Assembly (NCBI GenBank): GCA_029262315.1 | Contig: JAJCZP010000297.1 | Location: 1-35,236 of the forward strand | Reading direction: 5' to 3' | Origin: Deltaproteobacteria bacterium | Lineage (GTDB): Bacteria; Desulfobacterota; Binatia; UTPRO1 | DNA: 35,236 nucleotides | The notes under the pieces: generated by a model | Told to the model about the DNA's origin: nothing | The model's database searches: none | What the model saw: only the letters and a program-made list of their open reading frames with translations | Position numbers and translations under genes: made by a program | Shown: positions 4,297 through 13,932 of the stretch, piece by piece | Numbering within the stretch: the first letter of the stretch is position 1 | Layout of the letters: every line of letters starts with the position of its first letter

Positions 4297-5352
4297 CTAC
4301 GGTACCGCTACCACGTCTGCCACGATGCCCGTTGGGGCAAGTCCGATATCCACCAGGCGCCAGCCGCTCCCCGCACTATTCATGGCCACCACGAAAGAGT
4401 GAGGCGGCGAATCTATGCCCGTCAGCGGCGTTATCCCCGCGAGCACGCCGACCGTCGGTGACGCGAAGGCCAATCTGTTGAGCCCCGACTCAAGGCGAGG
4501 AAGAGCTTGCGCTTCCCAACTCGTCCCGCCGTTGGTCGTACGAAGGAGGGTCGGCTGAAGCGCGTCGTCGAGCAACGCAAGCCATCCGGTCGCAGCATCG
4601 AGGAATGTGATGGCCGAGATGCCTATGAGACCCGGCGGGATCGCCTCGGAGCGATCCTCCCAGGTCAGTCCTCCATCGAGCGAGCGGAAGAGCGACAACA
4701 GGCCGTTGTGTCCCCATACGGTCCGTCCCTCAACACAGGCAAAGTCAGCCGCCGGGGAGGGGATGGAGTCCCAGGTGGCACCGCCATCGGCAGAACGCAA
4801 AACGAGTCCAATGGAAGGACCAATGCCATGAGCCAGACCGATGCCGTCACCCGTGAAGCAGACGGAGCGTAAGCCGGCCTGCTCGGCGCCAGGCCGGCTT
4901 AGGTCAAGGGTCGCAGGATTCCACTGGGCGCCCCCGTTCGTTGTAAACAAGATGGTGGGCTCCCCGAACATCGGACCACCCAGGACCGGGTCTGCAGTGC
5001 CCGCCACGGCGCCTTCGGACGCGGAGAAGAACGCAACGTCATTATACGAGACGGCAACGTCATCTACCTGGACGGTCCATGAGTCACCACCGTCGCTGGT
5101 GTGAATGACTCCCCCTGCCCCGACGGCCCACCCGTGCGTGCGATCGACAAATTCGACATCACCGAGACCCGGCCGCGCGACCACGGGGGCCCACGTGACG
5201 CCGTCGTCTACCGAACGCAGCACAGTAGCTCCAGCCTCGGTGCCTCCGACGACGAAGAACCGTCCGCTGTTGCCGCCGCCCCCACTCCCGCAACCGACCG
5301 CGGTCAGCGCTACGAGCAGGAAAGCATGGGCAGAGTGAATGGCGTACCGCAC
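4297..5352 (-). CDS. BNR/Asp-box repeat lipoprotein, Ycf48-like
   Basis: A 351-residue protein. The open frame runs further upstream, but I start it at GTG 5352 because it opens directly into a lipoprotein signal (AHAFLLVALTAVGC) followed by a Gly/Ser-rich spacer. The rest is a beta-propeller with at least six Asp-box/BNR motifs of the S/T-x-D/N-G-G-x-x-W type: RSVDDGVTW, HTSDGGDSW, FTTNGGAQW, RSADGGATW, RSLDGGLTW and RTTNGGTSW. This resembles the photosystem II assembly factor Ycf48 and the WD40/YVTN/BNR-like exported proteins common in heterotrophs. There is no photosynthesis context, so the role here is unknown; exported protein binding or scaffolding is plausible. It is convergent with the lipase-like gene, with only 16 bases between stop codons. 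Confidence 0.78.
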   Translation of the reverse strand: MRYAIHSAHAFLLVALTAVGCGSGGGGNSGRFFVVGGTEAGATVLRSVDDGVTWAPVVARPGLGDVEFVDRTHGWAVGAGGVIHTSDGGDSWTVQVDDVAVSYNDVAFFSASEGAVAGTADPVLGGPMFGEPTILFTTNGGAQWNPATLDLSRPGAEQAGLRSVCFTGDGIGLAHGIGPSIGLVLRSADGGATWDSIPSPAADFACVEGRTVWGHNGLLSLFRSLDGGLTWEDRSEAIPPGLIGISAITFLDAATGWLALLDDALQPTLLRTTNGGTSWEAQALPRLESGLNRLAFASPTVGVLAGITPLTGIDSPPHSFVVAMNSAGSGWRLVDIGLAPTGIVADVVAVP

Positions 5353-5449
5353 GAGTCGGTTCGAGGCTACGGCGGTAGCTTCACGCGAGTCAATGACAGA
5401 CGCGAGCTCGAACAGAAGAAAGCGGCGATCTGTCGCGAACCGTGCCAGA

Positions 5450-6087
5450 ATGAGCCGTGATGCACATCCTGGTGAGATCGTGACTGCAACTGCAGAAGAC
5501 GTTCTCGAGTTTTGGTTCGGGGACGCGCGCGGCGATGCAGAGAGAGGGATGCAACGTCGTTCGTTCTGGTTCCAAGCCGACCCCGCTGTTGATGCGAGCA
5601 TCTCGAGGCGCTTCTCGGCGTCGGTTGAATCTGCCGCCCGCGGCGAGCTCGAAGCGTGGGAGCGAGAACCGCAGTCCAGCGTCGCGCTGATCATCCTACT
5701 GGACCAGTTTCCGAGGAACCTCTACCGGGGAAAGGCGGAAGCGTACGGTACGACTCCCGTGCTCTGGAGACTACCTTGCGCGCTGTCGCCGCTGGACACT
5801 GCGCAGAACTCTCCGTGGCCGAGCAATGCATGCTTGTCATGCCGTACGAACACACGGAGGACGTTTCCGTCCAGCGGGCAGGGATCGCACTTTTGCAGAA
5901 GCTTCTCGACGAAGTCGACCCGCTGTGGAAGCCGTTTGTACGAACCTCTCTCGACTTCGCGGTCCAGCACCTGGAGATCGTGGAGCGCTTCGGGAGGTTC
6001 CCGCATCGGAACGCAGTCCTCGGGCGGCCATCTGCCCCCGCCGAGCAAGCGTACCTGGACGGCGGGGGCGCGTCGTTCGGACAATGA
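5450..6087 (+). pseudogene. DUF924 family protein interrupted by a frameshift
   Basis: The gene is readable in two frames. From ATG 5450 (or GTG 5480, which has GGTGAG at 5471-5476) the frame gives the family opening AEDVLEFWFGD and continues through LLDQFPRNLYRGKAEAYGT to about 5750. The family sequence then continues one base back: DSRALETTLRAVAAGH, the PYEHTEDVSVQ motif and ERFGRFPHRNAVLGR, ending at TGA 6085-6087. The junction lies at about 5745-5757. A one-base deletion would explain it, either a real mutation or an assembly error. I see no slippery heptamer there, so programmed frameshifting is unlikely. Intact DUF924 proteins are about 190 residues, matching the sum of both parts. Their function is not established. 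Confidence 0.82.
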
Positions 6088-6102: not shown

Positions 6103-7734
6103 TTACTCGAGCATCAGGATCTTGCGGTCGATCGTGTAGGGGTAGCCGACGCGACGGAGTTCGCGATTGAAGTTGTAGCCCTTGGTGGTCGTATTGCCGA
6201 CGCCTTTGATCTTGTAGAACTGGAGGGTCTCGGGCTCGTAGGGTGCTTCGTACAAGGTCAACCCCTTGTAGGTTTCTCCGACGCGCGCTTTCTTGCCGAC
6301 GAACTTGCCGGTGCACACTTCGTCGAAGGTGACTTGTCCGATTGGCCCGTAGTTCATCTCATCGCCGTAGAGCCACGCGTAGAAGTCATTGCGGTTGTTC
6401 TGGGACCAGATCTGGTTGGCAACGCGTGACTTCGTGTGCCGGAACGCGAAGTAGTACTGCACGCCCATGATTTCGTTCTTGCCGTCGCCGCGGCGATCGA
6501 AAACATCGTAGCATTGCGAGACGTTGCGGTAGTTGACGATGCCTTCCATGGCCGCGGAGGTCGACGGCAGCATCTCACGGAGCGTGCCGAGATGCCCGGT
6601 GTTGAGTCGCGTGCAGCCATGGGAGACCGGGCCGCGGCTGGTCAGGGCGACGCGGTTGTACGCCTTCCCGCTGCGGCTTCCCTCGTTGTAGGTGCGCCAC
6701 TCTTTCGGAACGAGCGGGTGTCCCTGAATCCAGTTGCTGATCCCGGTGTTGTGGATCGAGTTGTAGGCGATGCCCCCGCCGTATTCGTAGGGGAACATCG
6801 GCAGGATGCCGTAGTAGCCAGCCGATGAGACGTAGTCGACCATGCCGATCTGCCCACGTCCGTGCTTGCGGGGGATGAAGGTCCAGATGCCCGGTGTGGT
6901 GATCATCGGGATGGTACGTCCATCGACCGTGGTCGTCTTGTCGTAGGTGCCGGCTGCCCAGATGGCCGTGAACTCGTAGTAGTCGATCTTGCCGTCACGG
7001 ATCGCGTAGATGTTGTCGGTCACGCCATGGAAGAAGGCCTCGATCTTTGGGCCAAGTGCCGCGCCGTCGTCGGCTTTGGCGAGTGCGATGATCTCGGCGA
7101 GTGCGGTTTCCTGTTCAGGGGAAAGCTTGTAGGCGAAAATGCGGTTCTGGAAGAGCGCGTTCACGAGGTCGAGCTTTGCTCCCAGATCCGTCGGCTCCGG
7201 GCTGGTCTTCAGCAGGGCAGTCCAGCTCGCGGTCATCGCGCCGAAGTCTTTCTGGATGTGGTAAAGCCGCTCGGGGTTCAGCTTGTCGATCGTCTTCACA
7301 TTGAGGGCACGCCATTCGGGGGCGGACAGACTCGCTTTCTGGGCTGCCAGCGCGCGGAGGCCCTCCGCCTCGAACCGCTTCTGGAAGTCCTCCCACGCGG
7401 TATTGGAGGTGAGCGTGATGAGTTCCTTGTCGATCACCTCCTTGTACAGATCGTGCTTGGCGACGAGGTCGGTGAGGTAGTTGTCGAGCGTGGCCTCGGG
7501 CAGCACCATGCGCAGGCGCAACTGATTCCCGCGCGCGAGGTGTACCTTGATACGATCGCGCTCTTGCACCCGCGGCACGAAGCCCGTGTAGAAGTTCGGA
7601 TCGTAGTCGTTGAAAAAGATTCCGTACGGCGCCGGGTCGGTCCAGCGCTCACGGCTCAGCGCGTCAGCCTGAGGGACACCAAATGCGAGAACGAGTGCGG
7701 TGAGGCTCGCGGCAATGGCCAGCTTTCGTATCAT
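6103..7734 (-). CDS. Exported L,D-transpeptidase-like (YkuD) protein, paralogue 1
   Basis: A 543-residue protein starting at ATG 7734 with a strong AGGAGG-type site upstream. Residues 1-25 are a Sec signal peptide (cleavage after QADA). The N-terminal half (about 35-250) is an alpha-helical region I cannot name. The C-terminal half carries the YkuD catalytic signature SRGPVSHGCTRLN (H372, C374, R376) and an upstream H328 in SIHNTG, which would be the partner histidine. About 43 residues separate H328 from H372, against about 14-17 in classical enzymes, so the active-site lid holds an insertion. A Ca-binding-like loop (DRRGDGKNE, 413-421) follows. Family knowledge suggests peptidoglycan cross-linking or attachment of other molecules; the substrate is inferred only. 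It is co-linear along its whole length with the gene at 12172-13932. Confidence 0.8.
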   Translation of the reverse strand: MIRKLAIAASLTALVLAFGVPQADALSRERWTDPAPYGIFFNDYDPNFYTGFVPRVQERDRIKVHLARGNQLRLRMVLPEATLDNYLTDLVAKHDLYKEVIDKELITLTSNTAWEDFQKRFEAEGLRALAAQKASLSAPEWRALNVKTIDKLNPERLYHIQKDFGAMTASWTALLKTSPEPTDLGAKLDLVNALFQNRIFAYKLSPEQETALAEIIALAKADDGAALGPKIEAFFHGVTDNIYAIRDGKIDYYEFTAIWAAGTYDKTTTVDGRTIPMITTPGIWTFIPRKHGRGQIGMVDYVSSAGYYGILPMFPYEYGGGIAYNSIHNTGISNWIQGHPLVPKEWRTYNEGSRSGKAYNRVALTSRGPVSHGCTRLNTGHLGTLREMLPSTSAAMEGIVNYRNVSQCYDVFDRRGDGKNEIMGVQYYFAFRHTKSRVANQIWSQNNRNDFYAWLYGDEMNYGPIGQVTFDEVCTGKFVGKKARVGETYKGLTLYEAPYEPETLQFYKIKGVGNTTTKGYNFNRELRRVGYPYTIDRKILMLE

Positions 7735-7855: not shown

Positions 7856-8902
7856 TTACTCTTCCTCGAGCGCGTGCCGGACGACACGATCCGTCAGCTC
7901 GGCGATGAAGGAGCCTCGATACCGGGGTGCGCCCTCGAGAAACACGGCGACGACGACCTGATGTCCGGAGTGATGTCGGACGATGCCGGCGTCTGCATGG
8001 ATGGGTCCCCATGTGCCGGTTTTCGAGTACACCTCGACGCCCGCGGTGCGCATGGCACCGCCCGCGATGCGGTGGCGGAGATATCCTTGCTTCCGTACAT
8101 CGCGTTGCATGCGACGCCGGACCTCCTCACAGCTGACGGGCGCGAGCGCCCGGTCGGTTGCTAGGAGCGCGAGCAGCCGTACGGAATCATCGGCAGTCAT
8201 CGCCTGACGGTTTCGGAGGTCACCGCTTCGCTTGGGGAGACACCCGGGTACGGTCGGGTCCTCGAGGAACTGCCGCTCCCGGGCCGAGATATCGCCGCCG
8301 TCGTAGGTCGGGTGCACGGTATGGAGGTCGGTGATGCCGAGATCAGCAAGCCAACGCTTCACCAGGTGGCGCTTGGTCCGAAAGGCTTCGTACTCTTCCT
8401 TGGAGAGCCGGGCTCCGGGCGTCGTGTCGGTGAGCTTTGCCACGACCCGTTGCGTGGCTTTGTTGCTACTGGAGTAGGTCATCGCCCGGAGGTGGCGATC
8501 CAGCTCGGGATCGATCTCGAGCATTCCCGCATCGCGCCACGCGAACGCCGCCATCAGGTAGACGAATTTGGGCACGCTGGCGGGATAAACGGGCGAGTCG
8601 CCTTTCCAGTGCGCGAGGCGGGCGGGTCCTTTCACAGGGATATCGATGACCGCGGTCCGAATCGTTTGCTGCCGCAGAGCCGCGTCGGTTTTGCGGAGGG
8701 CCTTGATGGTGTCATCGAAGAACGCCTGGAGTTTCGCGTCCTGTTCGACGGTGGCAAGCCAGGCGGTTGCCGCCTTTCCGCGCGCGCCGCCGATCGGCGG
8801 CCCGGTCTTTGGTTCGACCGCGCTCGCGAGTCCGGTGATCGCGCCGCTGATCGCGGTCAGCGCCACTACGAGCCCCACTCCCCTCCAAGCGCGTACACCC
8901 AC
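7856..8902 (-). CDS. SxxK serine hydrolase, beta-lactamase/PBP fold, exported
   Basis: About 348 residues from GTG 8902, chosen because it gives an Arg-containing n-region followed by the hydrophobic stretch GLVVALTAISGAITGLASA, a signal peptide or anchor. Other in-frame GTGs lie close by, so the start is uncertain. The three class A beta-lactamase/PBP motifs are in order: S109-V-P-K112 (SxxK), S145-S146-N147 (SxN, in YSSSNKAT) and K294-T-G (SKTGTWG). I find no clear ExxLN omega-loop motif, so it is more likely a DD-peptidase-like or other acyl-serine enzyme (Beta-lactamase2 group) than a true drug-hydrolysing beta-lactamase. It is encoded head-to-tail with one transpeptidase-like gene and divergently from the exported dikinase-like gene. 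Confidence 0.78.
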   Translation of the reverse strand: MGVRAWRGVGLVVALTAISGAITGLASAVEPKTGPPIGGARGKAATAWLATVEQDAKLQAFFDDTIKALRKTDAALRQQTIRTAVIDIPVKGPARLAHWKGDSPVYPASVPKFVYLMAAFAWRDAGMLEIDPELDRHLRAMTYSSSNKATQRVVAKLTDTTPGARLSKEEYEAFRTKRHLVKRWLADLGITDLHTVHPTYDGGDISARERQFLEDPTVPGCLPKRSGDLRNRQAMTADDSVRLLALLATDRALAPVSCEEVRRRMQRDVRKQGYLRHRIAGGAMRTAGVEVYSKTGTWGPIHADAGIVRHHSGHQVVVAVFLEGAPRYRGSFIAELTDRVVRHALEEE

Positions 8903-8975
8903 GGGCGGCAGAATAGGCTGCCCACATGCGAACGGCCACCCCCCCCAGGCCGGATGGGGAGCCGCGGCCTCCGCC

Positions 8976-8991
8976 CTCCGTTCAGACGGAG
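8976..8991. promoter_or_regulatory. Inverted repeat in the divergent intergenic region
   Basis: Within the 187-base gap 8903-9089 between two divergent genes lies CTCCGT-TCAG-ACGGAG, a perfect six-base inverted repeat with a four-base loop, flanked by CCG and CGG. It is the only clear symmetrical element in the gap and could be an operator shared by both genes or an RNA hairpin in the leader of the plus-strand gene. I could not identify confident -35 and -10 boxes. An eight-C run at 8939-8946 is also in the gap. Confidence 0.3.
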
Positions 8992-9089
8992 CGGTTTCCC
9001 TTCGCGGAGCGCCATGCCAAGATCCGCGGCCGGGTCTCTCATTGATGTCGCGCGGAGCGGTTCGGCCCGCGCGGGAAGGAGTCGAGACG

Positions 9090-12000
9090 GTGGATCGACG
9101 ACGAAGAATCCTTTGGATGGTTGGCGCGCTTCTCGTTGCCTCGGTGGGTAGTGCTGAGGCGGCGGCCACCGGTGGGCTGGGGCTCACGGCCGCGCAGACC
9201 AAGAAGCTCGACCAGGGCTGGAAGCTCACGCTCAGTAAGAAGAAGGGCCCGTACACGAAGAACTATTGCGTGTGCAAGAACGGTGAGAAGAAGCCGGTCA
9301 TGCTTCCCGACGGGCGGATCGTGAGCCCGTGCAGCGGCAATCCAGAGTTCTGTTCCGCGTTTCGCGAGCCGTGGGCCAAGGCGATCGCGGACGAGCGGAT
9401 GTACATTGCCAACCTGTTCTCCCGCGACCTTTGGCAGTGGGACGACTTCCCCGATCATCATGATCTCGTGCGTGGGTACATCCTCGAGAAGTTTTTCGTC
9501 GAGACCCATCCGAAGCACAAGCTGGCGGAGATGCGAGCCTACGGTGGCCTGGCCGGCGCCGAATACGAGGCTCGCGACGCACCCCTTTTCTTCGAGCGCT
9601 ATCTCGGCCTCGATGGCTTCTCGGAGTCGCGCCACTATCTCCTGGCCTACGATCTGCAGCGCCGCTTCTATGTGCGCGCCGGCCTGGGCGACATCGTCAA
9701 GGTCCGGAACCTGGCGTCCGCGATCCATCGCGAGCGCGAGAGCTTCAAGCCGCTCCGCGACGCCGTCCACAATCAGATCTCGGCGGCGTTGGTGCCTCGC
9801 ATCGAGGCCTATCGTGCCGGTGTTCCTGCCGGGGGGACGCGCGATCGGATCGACGAGTTGGTGCGTGAGATCGAAGCGCTCACCAAACTCGACGAATCAG
9901 CGATGAAGACGCAACTTTCAGAGATCGAGGACCCCGGGCTTCGCGACCAGATCACGTCGCGGCTGCCGGCCGCTGGGGCGAGTGATCTCGATGCGGTGCA
10001 AGCGCTGGCCGGCGTCATGGTTGGCGCGCGCCAGGCCGTTGAAGCCAAGATAGTGACGGTTGCGGATCGACGACGCGCCATCGATCTCGCCATCATGGCG
10101 TCGACGATTCTGCAGCAACGCAGTTCCACAGTCGTCGACTCCTCGAGCGCGACCGCTCGGGATCTCGTCGGCCTGCTGGCCGCCCTGGTGGATGCTGCCT
10201 ACGGAACCGGACTCCTGAGCGAACGTGAGCGCGCGGCGCTGGGCGACAATCTGAAGGAGCTGCACACATCATCTCGCCTGGCGCGGCATGAGCTCGAGCG
10301 CGCGATGGCGCGCGCGGCGCGTGCCATCGAGTGGGCGCAGGCGACGACCCTCTATGCCTTCGAGGAAGTGCGCGCACCGTGGAGCTATCTGCTGCCGGAT
10401 ACGGCGCTGATACCCGATGACGTGCTGCGCGGCTCGCCGTTGCTCGTCTATGGGCGTGCCCTCGGGCGGCTGCAGGACTGGGCCGTGGGTGGTGATCCGA
10501 TTCGCCACGATATCTTTGGTGCGTCACTCGACCAGGGCGTGCGTGCGCTCAACCCCGGTCTCGCATTCGGACCACTCAAGGTGGCACCCGTTGGCGGCGA
10601 TTATTCGCGCGATCATGTGGTGGCGCTTCCTGAGACTCCCGCCGACCTCGAGCCAGCCGCGGGTATCTTGACCCGCGGCGAAGGTAATGTGGTGTCGCAC
10701 GTGCAGCTCCTCGCACGTGCCCTCGGCATTCCCAACGTCGTGCTGTCGGCGAATGTCTACGAGAAGTTCGCGGCGCATGATGGAGGCGACGTCTTTTTCA
10801 TTTCGACTCCGGGTGGCCGCGTCGTCGTGAAAGACGCCGCGAGTATGACCGCTGACGACCAGGCGGTCATTGCCGAGTACACACGCAACGAAGAACGCGG
10901 TGCGGAGGGATCGCTCGAGGGCGGCGGTGCCAAGCTGCACATAGACAAAGAGCGACTGGATCTGACCGACACGCTTGCGATCGATCTTGCGAGCATGCGG
11001 CGGAAGCACTCGGGTATCCGTTGTGGTCCCAAGGCCGCCTTTCTCGGCGAGCTCAAGCATCTGTTTCCGGACAAGGTGGCACGTGGCGTCGTGGTTCCCT
11101 TTGGTGCCTACCATGCGCACTACAATGCAGCGCAGGTTGCCGTGCCGAGCGAGCTCCGGAGCGCGAGCATCGCGACGGTGGGCGAACCGCTCCCGACATT
11201 CGTCGAGCGGACATACGCCGAGTTTTTCGGGAAGATGATCCCGTCCGGGGCTGACGAGCGGACCCTGGCGACATGGATCCGTCCCCGGCTGTCCGTGATC
11301 CGGCATTCGCTCGAGCAGAAGCCCCTCGCCGATGATCTCCGGGCTTCGATTCAAAGCGGGTTGGCGCGCCACGGTCTTTTGAACGCATCCGACCCGACGC
11401 AGACGGTCGGCGTGTTCATCCGGAGCGATACGAACGTCGAGGATCTGGACAACTTCAATGGCGCCGGGCTCAACCTCACGCTCTTCAATCGCCGCTCGCT
11501 TGCAGATGTGTACGCGGGATTGAAGGAAGTGTGGGCATCTCCGTTCACCTATCGCTCGTTCTCCTGGCGGCAGACGCTCATCGACGAGCCGCTCTGGGTG
11601 CTACCGTCGGTGATCATTCTCGAGAGCGTGGCCACCGAGAAGTCCGGTGTGCTCGTTACGGCCGACGTCGACGGACACGACGAGAAGGGCATGCTGATCG
11701 CGACGTCGGAGGGAGTTGGTGGGGCGGTCGACGGCACGCCTGCCGAGACGATCGTCTGGTCGAAGGGTGACGTCGAGCTGGTGACGATGTTCAAGTCGCC
11801 CTACCGGCGCCTGCTCCAGGCGGGTGGAGGGACGGAGGTCGTGCCGTCGACCCGCAGCGAGTTCGTGCTCGACGACGCGGACGTCCGCGAGCTTACCTCG
11901 ACGGCCGATACAGTCCGCGCCAGGCTCGTCCCGTCGCGGGGCCCGCAGGGGAAGGCACGCCCGTGGGACATCGAGTTTGGATTCTCGAAGGGCAAGCTCT

Positions 12001-12125
12001 GGCTCTTCCAGGTCCGCCCGTTCGTCGGGAACGATTCATTGCAGAATGTCGCGGCGCTCAATGCATTCGAGGCGCCGCGCGCCGGCGCCGACGACGCGCT
12101 ACGTCTCGACGAGACGATACCGTAG
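9090..12125 (+). CDS. Exported dikinase-like protein: phosphohistidine swivel domain plus PPDK-type ATP-grasp
   Basis: A 1011-residue protein from GTG 9090, which has AAGGAG at 9076-9081 eight bases upstream. Residues 1-24 form a signal peptide with an RRRRIL n-region (a possible Tat motif) and cleavage after AEA. Then come a four-Cys segment (C60, C62, C81, C88), a long helical region (about 90-450), and a PEP-utiliser mobile domain with AGILTRGEGNVVSHVQLLAR (catalytic-type His537). After that is a PPDK_N-like ATP-grasp domain with PKAAFLGEL (K648), IRSDTNVED (R778), DIEFG (960-964) and FQVRP (Q974). The swivel-before-ATP-grasp order is that of glucan and phosphoglucan water dikinases, opposite to PEP synthase. 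No PEP TIM barrel follows. The ATP-binding residues look intact, so it is probably active. The acceptor is unknown, and an exported ATP-dependent enzyme is odd. Confidence 0.82.
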   Translation: MDRRRRILWMVGALLVASVGSAEAAATGGLGLTAAQTKKLDQGWKLTLSKKKGPYTKNYCVCKNGEKKPVMLPDGRIVSPCSGNPEFCSAFREPWAKAIADERMYIANLFSRDLWQWDDFPDHHDLVRGYILEKFFVETHPKHKLAEMRAYGGLAGAEYEARDAPLFFERYLGLDGFSESRHYLLAYDLQRRFYVRAGLGDIVKVRNLASAIHRERESFKPLRDAVHNQISAALVPRIEAYRAGVPAGGTRDRIDELVREIEALTKLDESAMKTQLSEIEDPGLRDQITSRLPAAGASDLDAVQALAGVMVGARQAVEAKIVTVADRRRAIDLAIMASTILQQRSSTVVDSSSATARDLVGLLAALVDAAYGTGLLSERERAALGDNLKELHTSSRLARHELERAMARAARAIEWAQATTLYAFEEVRAPWSYLLPDTALIPDDVLRGSPLLVYGRALGRLQDWAVGGDPIRHDIFGASLDQGVRALNPGLAFGPLKVAPVGGDYSRDHVVALPETPADLEPAAGILTRGEGNVVSHVQLLARALGIPNVVLSANVYEKFAAHDGGDVFFISTPGGRVVVKDAASMTADDQAVIAEYTRNEERGAEGSLEGGGAKLHIDKERLDLTDTLAIDLASMRRKHSGIRCGPKAAFLGELKHLFPDKVARGVVVPFGAYHAHYNAAQVAVPSELRSASIATVGEPLPTFVERTYAEFFGKMIPSGADERTLATWIRPRLSVIRHSLEQKPLADDLRASIQSGLARHGLLNASDPTQTVGVFIRSDTNVEDLDNFNGAGLNLTLFNRRSLADVYAGLKEVWASPFTYRSFSWRQTLIDEPLWVLPSVIILESVATEKSGVLVTADVDGHDEKGMLIATSEGVGGAVDGTPAETIVWSKGDVELVTMFKSPYRRLLQAGGGTEVVPSTRSEFVLDDADVRELTSTADTVRARLVPSRGPQGKARPWDIEFGFSKGKLWLFQVRPFVGNDSLQNVAALNAFEAPRAGADDALRLDETIP

Positions 12126-12171: not shown

Positions 12172-13932
12172 ATGCACATGGTTTCTTCGTTTACTGCTGA
12201 GTCCGCTCGTCGCACGATGCGCTCGAGGCTCGGGCTCGCCGCACTCGTCGTGTGTACGGGTATCGTTCAAACAGCGAGCGTCGCGCGTGCCGTCGACATG
12301 CTCGAAGAACCACCGAACTACGGCTCGTTCTACGATCGGTACGAGCCGAGCTTCTACACCGGCTTCGCGCCTCGCGGCGTGGATCCTCGGCGGTTGCACC
12401 TGCACATCGGCCGCGGCAACCAGGTGCGTGCGACGGTCGTCCTCTCCGACGACGTACTGCGTGACTACGCGCGGGATCTTCAGGCACGCCAGCACACCTA
12501 TCGAACACTCGTCGATGAGGGTCGAATCGAGCTGACCCAGAACAGGGGGTTCGAGGCGTTCAATGCGCGTCTCGCGGAGATCGGGCTCGAGCGCCTGGTG
12601 CGAGAGGAGGGCGAGTTGGCTCCCGAGACGCTCCGCGCGCGCAACCTGGCGCTTCTCGAGCGCTTGAATCCCGGTCGTGTCTTTCGGATCGAGTTTTCCG
12701 AGGACGAGCTCATGCGTCGGTGGCTCGCCCGGCTGAAGCCCGCCGACACGGGCAGCATGGGCCGCGATCGTCGACTCGAGCTCGTGAACGCACTCCTTCC
12801 TACGCGACTCTGGCTCGCGGAACTCGACACCGGTACGGTGAAAGAACTGAAGGCGCTGGTCGGTCAAGGGATCGCTCTCACCGAGCGCGGGGCGCAGGCC
12901 GAAGACGTTGCTCTCGCCGACGATACTGCGGGCGTGCACCCCACGCTTCTCGCCGATGACGCTGCACCCACCACGGGCTCGACGGTCTCGGTGACCTTCC
13001 GAGCGGCCTACTTCGCCCTCCTCGAGCGGGTCAGCCACGATCTGTATCCGCGGCGCGACGGGCGGCTCGCATTCGTCGAGTTCACGGCGATCTATCCCAT
13101 CGGCTCGGTGAACGAGTATACGACCTACCGTGGTAGTCGGATTCCCCTGTATCCGACGCCGGGTCGCCGCGCGCTCACGACGCATCAGCGGACGAAGACG
13201 GTCGATCACATTCCCACGGTCGCTGTGTACAGCTACTCGCCGTGGATTCCGTACATGCATGTCGGCACCAAGCTCCACAACTCGTTTCATACCTTGTGGT
13301 GGCGCATGCAGCCTAAACAGACACGGTTCCTACCCGAGAGTTGGAAGAATGCCCCGCAGGCCTCCCGCGACGGCAAGTCCTACCAGTACCTCTGGCTGAT
13401 TTCGCGCGGGCCAATGTCGCATGGCTGTACGCATCTCACGACCGGTCACATCGCGGAGCTCCGCCAGCTCTTCCCGTCCGAGACCGAGAAGCTCTACGAC
13501 ATCGATACTTTCCTCAACAAGTCGTACCTCTACGACGTCTTCGACATCGATGGGGACTTTACGCCCGAAGTCATGGGCGTGCGCTACTTCATCGCGTATT
13601 CGTTGAAGAACAAGAAGCCGGACGTCCTACGTGTGCGGAACGAGCGCCGTGCCTACTACGAGTGGCTATATGGAGGGGAGCTGCGCCTCGACGAGGAAGG
13701 CCGGGGGAGCTTCGGCGAGATGCGTGACGGCCGCTTCGTCGAGCGAACCGCGAAAGACGGCGCGACCTACGAGGGCTTGGCGCTCTACGAGGCGGCGTAC
13801 GAGCCGGAGAAGTTTCAGATGTACAAGCTGGTCGACATTCCCTTCGCGCGGGCGCTGCGGAAGGTCGGTCTCCATCATCCCTTCAAGGGCGTCCCGCCCC
13901 CGCTAACGAGTGCCGCTGGAGGCAAGATATGA
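12172..13932 (+). CDS. Exported L,D-transpeptidase-like (YkuD) protein, paralogue 2
   Basis: A 586-residue protein from ATG 12172, with GAGGGG at 12161-12166 five bases upstream. The hydrophobic stretch LGLAALVVCTGIVQTASVARA is a signal peptide. The rest aligns from end to end with the protein encoded at 6103-7734: shared anchors are FYTGF near residue 61, RGNQ near 81, VEFTAIY near 302, LHNSFH (H369), SRGPMSHGCTHLTTGH (H417, C419), YDVFDIDGDFTPEVMGVRY and the C-terminal LYEAAYEPE. The Arg usually following SHGCx is His421 here, and the next Asn is Thr, so activity or specificity may differ from paralogue 1. DIDGDFTPE (458-466) resembles a Ca-binding loop. It lies 46 bases after the dikinase-like gene, probably in the same operon, and overlaps the RidA start. 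Confidence 0.8.
   Translation: MHMVSSFTAESARRTMRSRLGLAALVVCTGIVQTASVARAVDMLEEPPNYGSFYDRYEPSFYTGFAPRGVDPRRLHLHIGRGNQVRATVVLSDDVLRDYARDLQARQHTYRTLVDEGRIELTQNRGFEAFNARLAEIGLERLVREEGELAPETLRARNLALLERLNPGRVFRIEFSEDELMRRWLARLKPADTGSMGRDRRLELVNALLPTRLWLAELDTGTVKELKALVGQGIALTERGAQAEDVALADDTAGVHPTLLADDAAPTTGSTVSVTFRAAYFALLERVSHDLYPRRDGRLAFVEFTAIYPIGSVNEYTTYRGSRIPLYPTPGRRALTTHQRTKTVDHIPTVAVYSYSPWIPYMHVGTKLHNSFHTLWWRMQPKQTRFLPESWKNAPQASRDGKSYQYLWLISRGPMSHGCTHLTTGHIAELRQLFPSETEKLYDIDTFLNKSYLYDVFDIDGDFTPEVMGVRYFIAYSLKNKKPDVLRVRNERRAYYEWLYGGELRLDEEGRGSFGEMRDGRFVERTAKDGATYEGLALYEAAYEPEKFQMYKLVDIPFARALRKVGLHHPFKGVPPPLTSAAGGKI

Follow-up and report, generated by a model that had tools for sequence, protein, structure and literature searches.

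How is an enzyme that consumes ATP supplied with energy once it has left the cytoplasm for surroundings that normally contain no ATP? The question is raised by a gene at positions 9090-12125 (+) of the window, the whole 35,236-nucleotide stretch of DNA analysed here, which encodes an exported protein of 1011 residues, DIK1. The protein was recognised as a dikinase from its PPDK_N match, its homologues and its invariant catalytic residues. Beyond the gene itself, the main interest of the locus is that the exported dikinase sits in a wall-type module travelling with predicted ATP/ADP exchangers. The best explanation of the locus as a whole, at a probability of about 0.5, is that DIK1, with its GWD-like domain order, is a water dikinase from the PPDK/PEPS/RPH/GWD superfamily exported via Sec, and is part of a conserved cell-envelope gene module with ATP supplied by NTT transporters. 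Export signals, intact catalytic residues, synteny and co-occurrence are the observations on which this module reading is built.

The DIK1 open reading frame runs from a GTG codon at 9090 to a stop at 12123-12125, with GGAAGGAG located about 8 nucleotides 5′ of the start. The frame is open from 8646, and a start upstream of 9090 was therefore considered. It was rejected because the residues encoded there are unconserved and overlap the divergent hydrolase gene, and because complete homologues begin near 9090. A homologue search in 58 related genomes identified two subfamilies, the DIK1 orthologues, 50-60% identical, and DIK2, ~31% identical. Since the orthologues at 50-60% identity occur in other genera and families, a chance origin of the open reading frame is excluded. 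A search of named genomes returned a single relative, a Desulfobulbaceae MAG, and a search of a plasmid collection with the dikinase returned distant PEPS/RPH-type ATP-grasp matches only. Two irregular copies were noted. DIK2 of G399 (L052:6900-9805) is split over two frames, by a genuine frameshift or through an error in sequencing. A dikinase copy in G031 (L044:7536-9188, contig C163) forms a single 570-aa frame in which residues ~1-483 and 931-996 are kept and the His domain is missing along with the greater part of the ATP-grasp, by natural deletion or assembly error. LDTa, LDTb and NTT genes still adjoin this shortened copy, and dikinase fragments also occur on contigs C173 and C115 of the same genome.

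We then considered the export of DIK1. A Sec-type signal peptide is predicted at residues ~1-25 (RRRRILWMVGALLVASVGSAEAAA; 9090-9164, +), with a positive n-region, a hydrophobic core and A-x-A sites. In every dikinase homologue with a complete N-terminus, an n-region of positive charge is followed by a hydrophobic core and by small-residue cleavage sites that immediately precede the conserved part. In 12 of these N-termini, the 12-residue hydropathy maximum ranged from 2.1 to 3.2, as compared to 0.3 and 0.8 for two cytosolic control proteins encoded in the window. Homologues lacking a signal peptide and starting further downstream were looked for; those found share the start position and have signal-peptide-like N-termini. 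These results agree with the preliminary description, which had proposed that the dikinase is exported. The same description had suggested that DIK1 could follow the Tat route, folded and perhaps already phosphorylated, in which case it would deliver one phosphate per molecule. The RRRRIL motif of DIK1 and one homologue (G005), the only one of the 12 N-termini to fit a loose RR-x Tat pattern, are compatible with this idea, but none of the 12 has a strict Tat motif, several orthologues have no RR at all, and a single-turnover delivery of phosphate would be very costly. We consider Tat export of a phosphorylated protein extremely improbable, and export via Sec a reasonable call from the N-terminal sequences.

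Catalytic competence was examined using Pfam, an alignment of 16 homologues and structure prediction. A match to PEP-utilizers, the swivel His domain, at residues 518-557 precedes the PPDK_N match at 646-983 (E 1.9e-23), so that the His domain comes before the ATP-grasp as previously described. The PEP-utilizers score of DIK1 is 19.8 bits, under the curated cut-off of 23.1; each of the 16 homologues matches this domain at E<=5, with a best value of 1.6e-7, and all of them match PPDK_N as well. The absence of a PEP TIM barrel was also confirmed: no PEP/TIM-barrel match was found and the protein ends soon past the ATP-grasp. Residues H537, K648, R778, E962 and Q974, already reported as intact, are all in place and, together with D960 and R976, are invariant in the alignment. 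The invariance of these seven catalytic residues across two subfamilies ~31% identical indicates that dikinase activity is under selection. Judged on its residues, DIK1 probably functions in the manner of the water dikinases in the PPDK/PEPS/RPH/GWD superfamily.

An AlphaFold2 model of DIK1, built from 16 sequences, had a mean pLDDT of 81. The ATP-grasp domain (residues ~624-982; 10959-12035, +) matched, over model residues 624-980, that of rifampin phosphotransferase (RPH) (5hv1; Z 33.7, rmsd 2.2, 306 aligned), PEP synthase (2ols; Z 31.3) and HpeI (9goj; Z 25.0). The phospho-His swivel domain carrying H537 (residues ~480-602; 10527-10895, +) matched, over model residues 474-602, the phosphotransfer domain at the N-terminus of Enzyme I (5woy; Z 10.0, rmsd 2.8, 115 aligned). 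Upstream, residues ~96-470 (9375-10499, +) are predicted to be helical, with pLDDT mostly between 75 and 96, and belong to no Pfam family; an acceptor-binding or scaffold role is presumed for this region of the model. The structural matches listed for the model, which one domain took up, included no solved counterpart of the helical region. Just past the signal peptide, a four-Cys segment (C60, C62, C81, C88; 9249-9374, +) is invariant in 8 full-length DIK1 homologues, and C62 alone of these cysteines is aligned in the DIK2 subfamily. The four cysteines could bind metal or form disulfides, the two options raised in the preliminary description.

In GWD, a phospho-His domain is followed by a C-terminal PPDK_N ATP-grasp, and the enzyme acts within plastids. 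DIK1 resembles the GWD and PWD enzymes of plants and algae in having this order without a PEP barrel; its motif RSDTNVEDLxxFxGAGLN presumably resembles that of plant GWD, which we treat as a lead. DIK1 differs from them in being bacterial, in carrying a signal peptide and in adjoining wall-type genes. GWD1_pHisD (PF22973) had no match in the genome of the window at E<=1, and no carbohydrate-binding Pfam domain (the starch-binding CBM45 and CBM20 were sought) was found in the 16 dikinase members at E<=5. A structural comparison with GWD, PpsA and RPH had been proposed in the preliminary description; it could be made with RPH and PEP synthase, as given above, no GWD structure being available (PMC12892837). 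PEP synthase and PPDK share with DIK1 the ATP-grasp, the His swivel domain and the catalytic residues. However, the domain order of DIK1 is reversed, it has no pyruvate/PEP TIM barrel, and it is exported. Homology in order and length to cytoplasmic PEP synthases was checked for, and an assignment of DIK1 as a PEPS was discarded, the NCBIfam equivalog cut-offs being missed by far. The same genome encodes a cytosolic PPDK; an origin of DIK1 by domain shuffling of this protein was also discarded, as the PPDK is separate and has the standard domain order. Finally, RPH and its relatives such as HpeI share the ATP-grasp fold and a dikinase chemistry giving AMP and Pi, whereas RPH has its ATP-grasp first, a rifampin-binding domain and a cytosolic location. 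DIK1 was not retained as an RPH, since it scores 50.7 bits against a cut-off of 999 with NF041857 and the ATP-grasp alone matches.

The genes flanking DIK1 encode exported proteins of wall type. A divergent gene on the other strand, located 187 bp upstream of the dikinase gene, encodes an exported serine hydrolase of beta-lactamase fold (7856-8902, -; PF13354, 58 bits against a cut-off of 22). Its SVPK, SSN and KTG sequences match the SxxK, SxN and KTG motifs of Beta-lactamase2. Beyond it, LDTa (6103-7734, -) encodes an exported 543-aa protein, and its exported paralogue LDTb (12172-13932, +; 34% identical to LDTa, blastp 2e-103) starts 46 nt past the dikinase stop. Position H328 and the SHGC sequence at 371-374 of LDTa are invariant in 17 aligned sequences of the LDTa/LDTb family. 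LDTa and LDTb have no Pfam match above cut-off. YkuD (PF03734) is the Pfam model touched by most members of the family, at 5 of 17 with a best E of 0.027, under the cut-off. A profile comparison (hhalign) of the family with three YkuD proteins encoded in the genome of the window aligned the SHGC region, with an E of 4.6e-4 for a single comparison and a probability of 33%. A model of an LDT-like protein matched 4lpq (Z 3.8, rmsd 6.2, 104 aligned) and 7o21 (Z 3.5), with active-site loops at pLDDT <50. These data weakly suggest that LDTa and LDTb are L,D-transpeptidase-like, with YkuD as a candidate fold. A gene for a Ycf48-like BNR-repeat protein (4297-5694, -; PF14870, 54 bits) lies outside the conserved module.

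With such neighbours, an exported dikinase might modify or inactivate a small molecule, for instance an antibiotic, as rifampin phosphotransferase does, beside a beta-lactamase and a beta-lactam-insensitive transpeptidase. RPH indeed provides the closest solved ATP-grasp and the adjacent hydrolase belongs to the beta-lactamase family, but the RPH family cut-off is missed as described above, the domain order differs and the rifampin-binding domain is unmatched. Moreover, the natural source of ATP for such an enzyme would be the cytosol, which leaves both export and an NTT partner unexplained. This alternative appears very unlikely.

Gene order was compared between loci. Most DIK1 loci have the order hydrolase (-), dikinase, LDTa and/or LDTb, with LDTb after the dikinase or after LDTa, and the dikinase stop and the LDTa start overlap in at least 5 loci. 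The hydrolase adjoins the dikinase in both subfamilies. Among 148 genomes of the class, 19 with and 129 without a dikinase, DIK1 and the LDT-like family each occur in 13, and the two sets of genomes coincide exactly (Fisher 7e-19, a value that ignores shared ancestry). Genomes with DIK2 only have no LDT-like family and keep beta-lactamase-fold hydrolases beside the dikinase. Outside the class, G320 carries the dikinase and both LDT-like genes. In its congener G411, an LDT-like gene is located on a short contig and the dikinase was not found in the genome. The Desulfobulbaceae MAG (G437) has two dikinase copies (L029, L121) with LDT-like genes after each. As a side observation, in one DIK2 locus a further exported protein of beta-lactamase fold (PF13354, GSVGK motif; L042:6066-7457) is encoded directly 3′ of DIK2 on the same strand, in addition to the convergent hydrolase gene, and equivalents occur in L040, L043, L052, L053, L125, L126 and L128.

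The neighbourhood comparison also revealed a membrane protein gene beside the dikinase in 10 of the 12 DIK2 loci. Pfam identifies most of the tested products as TLC ATP/ADP transporters, with PF03219 scores reaching 59.7 bits against a cut-off of 21. Seven DIK1 loci (L033, L034, L035, L037, L038, L044 and L051) have an NTT gene beside the dikinase, followed in six of them by a larger gene encoding a transporter-like region, a cyclic-nucleotide-binding domain (cNBD) and, in some, HEAT repeats. PF03219 scores were 82.4 bits in L051, 59.7 in L052, 38.4 in L039, 35.7 in L041 and 22.0 in the genome of the window, and the NTTs of L033 and L034 lie just under the cut-off. TIGR00769, the NTP/NDP exchange transporter superfamily, was the best NCBIfam family for 6 of 7 scanned single NTT-domain proteins, with scores of at most 48.8 bits that leave its 387-bit cut-off unmet. 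These transporters resemble the NTT (TLC/AAA) family in their PF03219 match or in an NTT-like-HEAT-cNBD architecture (Major et al. 2017, PMC5381601), and differ from described NTTs in being tied to an exported ATP-using enzyme and in occurring in non-reduced genomes.

A common NTT clade (A4 profile, >480 bits) is present in 13 of the 19 dikinase genomes and in 0 of the 129 others (Fisher 2e-14, again ignoring shared ancestry). The corresponding counts for PF03219 by Pfam alone are 12/19 and 13/129. Of the six dikinase genomes without this clade, G016, G042, G495 and G482 carry another type of NTT gene next to the dikinase (L039, L041, L127 and L128), G496 has a PF03219 match elsewhere in the genome, and G485 has, at the end of a contig, a partial gene of the NTT-HEAT-cNBD type (L124). 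The NTT stop and the start of the hydrolase gene overlap in L040 and L127. That the type of NTT adjoining the dikinase varies between lineages speaks for selection on the pairing. In genus g22 the NTT gene adjoins the DIK2 paralogue, not DIK1, which weighs against the proposed ATP supply of DIK1. From these gene contexts, the NTT genes are a candidate answer to how the exported dikinase gets its energy.

Overall, an exported dikinase and a conserved wall-type cluster with a predicted ATP/ADP transporter suggest that chemistry in the cell envelope is powered by ATP delivered to it. More specifically, it is plausible, at somewhat less than even odds, that free-living Gram-negatives stock their own periplasm with ATP via an ATP/ADP exchanger, thereby powering an exported water dikinase that phosphorylates a wall or envelope polymer. 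For this mechanism, we infer the direction of transport, the dikinase activity and the acceptor. NTTs are counter-exchangers, and therefore the same protein could move ATP outward where the cell has an ATP supply of its own. An inner-membrane exchanger of NTT/TLC type would carry cytosolic ATP to the periplasm, where the ATP-grasp domain of DIK1 would split it; H537 would accept the beta-phosphate, with release of AMP and Pi. Phospho-H537 would then pass the phosphate to a periplasmic acceptor bound at the helical N-terminal region. The acceptor would most likely be an envelope polymer, plausibly peptidoglycan or another wall glycan; a wall glycan is favoured only on account of the constant partners, exported enzymes whose active sites are L,D-transpeptidase-like or of beta-lactamase fold. 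Characterised NTTs swap ATP for ADP, with ADP preferred. Because the dikinase would yield AMP, an extra step or a different NTT specificity would be needed. The dikinase chemistry is drawn from the characterised relatives GWD (PMC7569903) and RPH (PMC4844700).

The direction of transport could also be the opposite. NTTs characterised in intracellular bacteria import host ATP (PMC5381601), and the module NTTs might likewise import outside ATP, from lysed neighbours or prey, the exported enzymes attacking the wall of another cell with the ATP that it leaks. The fact that every module partner is exported would fit, as would the weak presence of Bdellovibrio Bd1075 among the LDT-like fold matches (Z 3.5). 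However, the dikinase-bearing genomes are mostly of 3-8 Mb and not reduced, the presence of the module is sporadic even within genera, and no predation genes were identified, which makes ATP import unlikely. It is only somewhat less unlikely that the envelope module is real and that its NTT/TLC-like proteins transport some other solute or serve as sensors, with the dikinase using trace periplasmic ATP or another phosphoryl donor. NTT-HEAT-cNBD fusions of no known function in free-living bacteria (PMC5381601) and the divergent NTT of the window's genome are in line with this possibility. Against it, several distinct TLC/AAA NTT types lie beside the dikinase in most loci and in two subfamilies, which is hard to explain unless nucleotides matter, and the ATP-grasp residues are fully kept.

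Delivery of ATP to the periplasm would bear on two questions. According to a review, the passage of ATP from the cytosol to the periplasm is unclear, and no homologue of an ATP/ADP translocase was known from Gram-negatives (PMC7432876). Free-living bacteria widely carry NTT genes, HEAT and cNBD fusions among them, that have no known role (PMC5381601); the text of the latter paper mentions neither gene neighbourhood nor the periplasm. A text search, outside subscription journals, found no literature linking NTT transporters with a dikinase in this manner. Because an NTT and an exported ATP-dependent enzyme are paired in a conserved way, both questions can be tested directly. If the proposed mechanism is true, it would give a function to the NTT and NTT-HEAT-cNBD proteins of free-living bacteria, and would constitute a bacterial envelope counterpart of GWD-type polymer phosphorylation.

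In the genome of the window (G000), the NTT gene and a cNBD-containing transporter-like gene form a pair on contig C282, away from the dikinase contig (L160:5333-8623, +, for the cNBD-containing gene and 8726-10114, -, for the NTT), adjoining an MMPL transporter gene; no dikinase gene is present in the 19 kb of L160. This NTT is divergent, with a TIGR00769 score far under the cut-off in addition to its low PF03219 score. Its divergence and its separate location weigh against the proposed mechanism. In three genomes of the window's family, a second NTT-family gene lies on the same contig, ~10-16 kb downstream of the dikinase (G002:C72:18952, G004:C59:85462 and G005:C41:59224).
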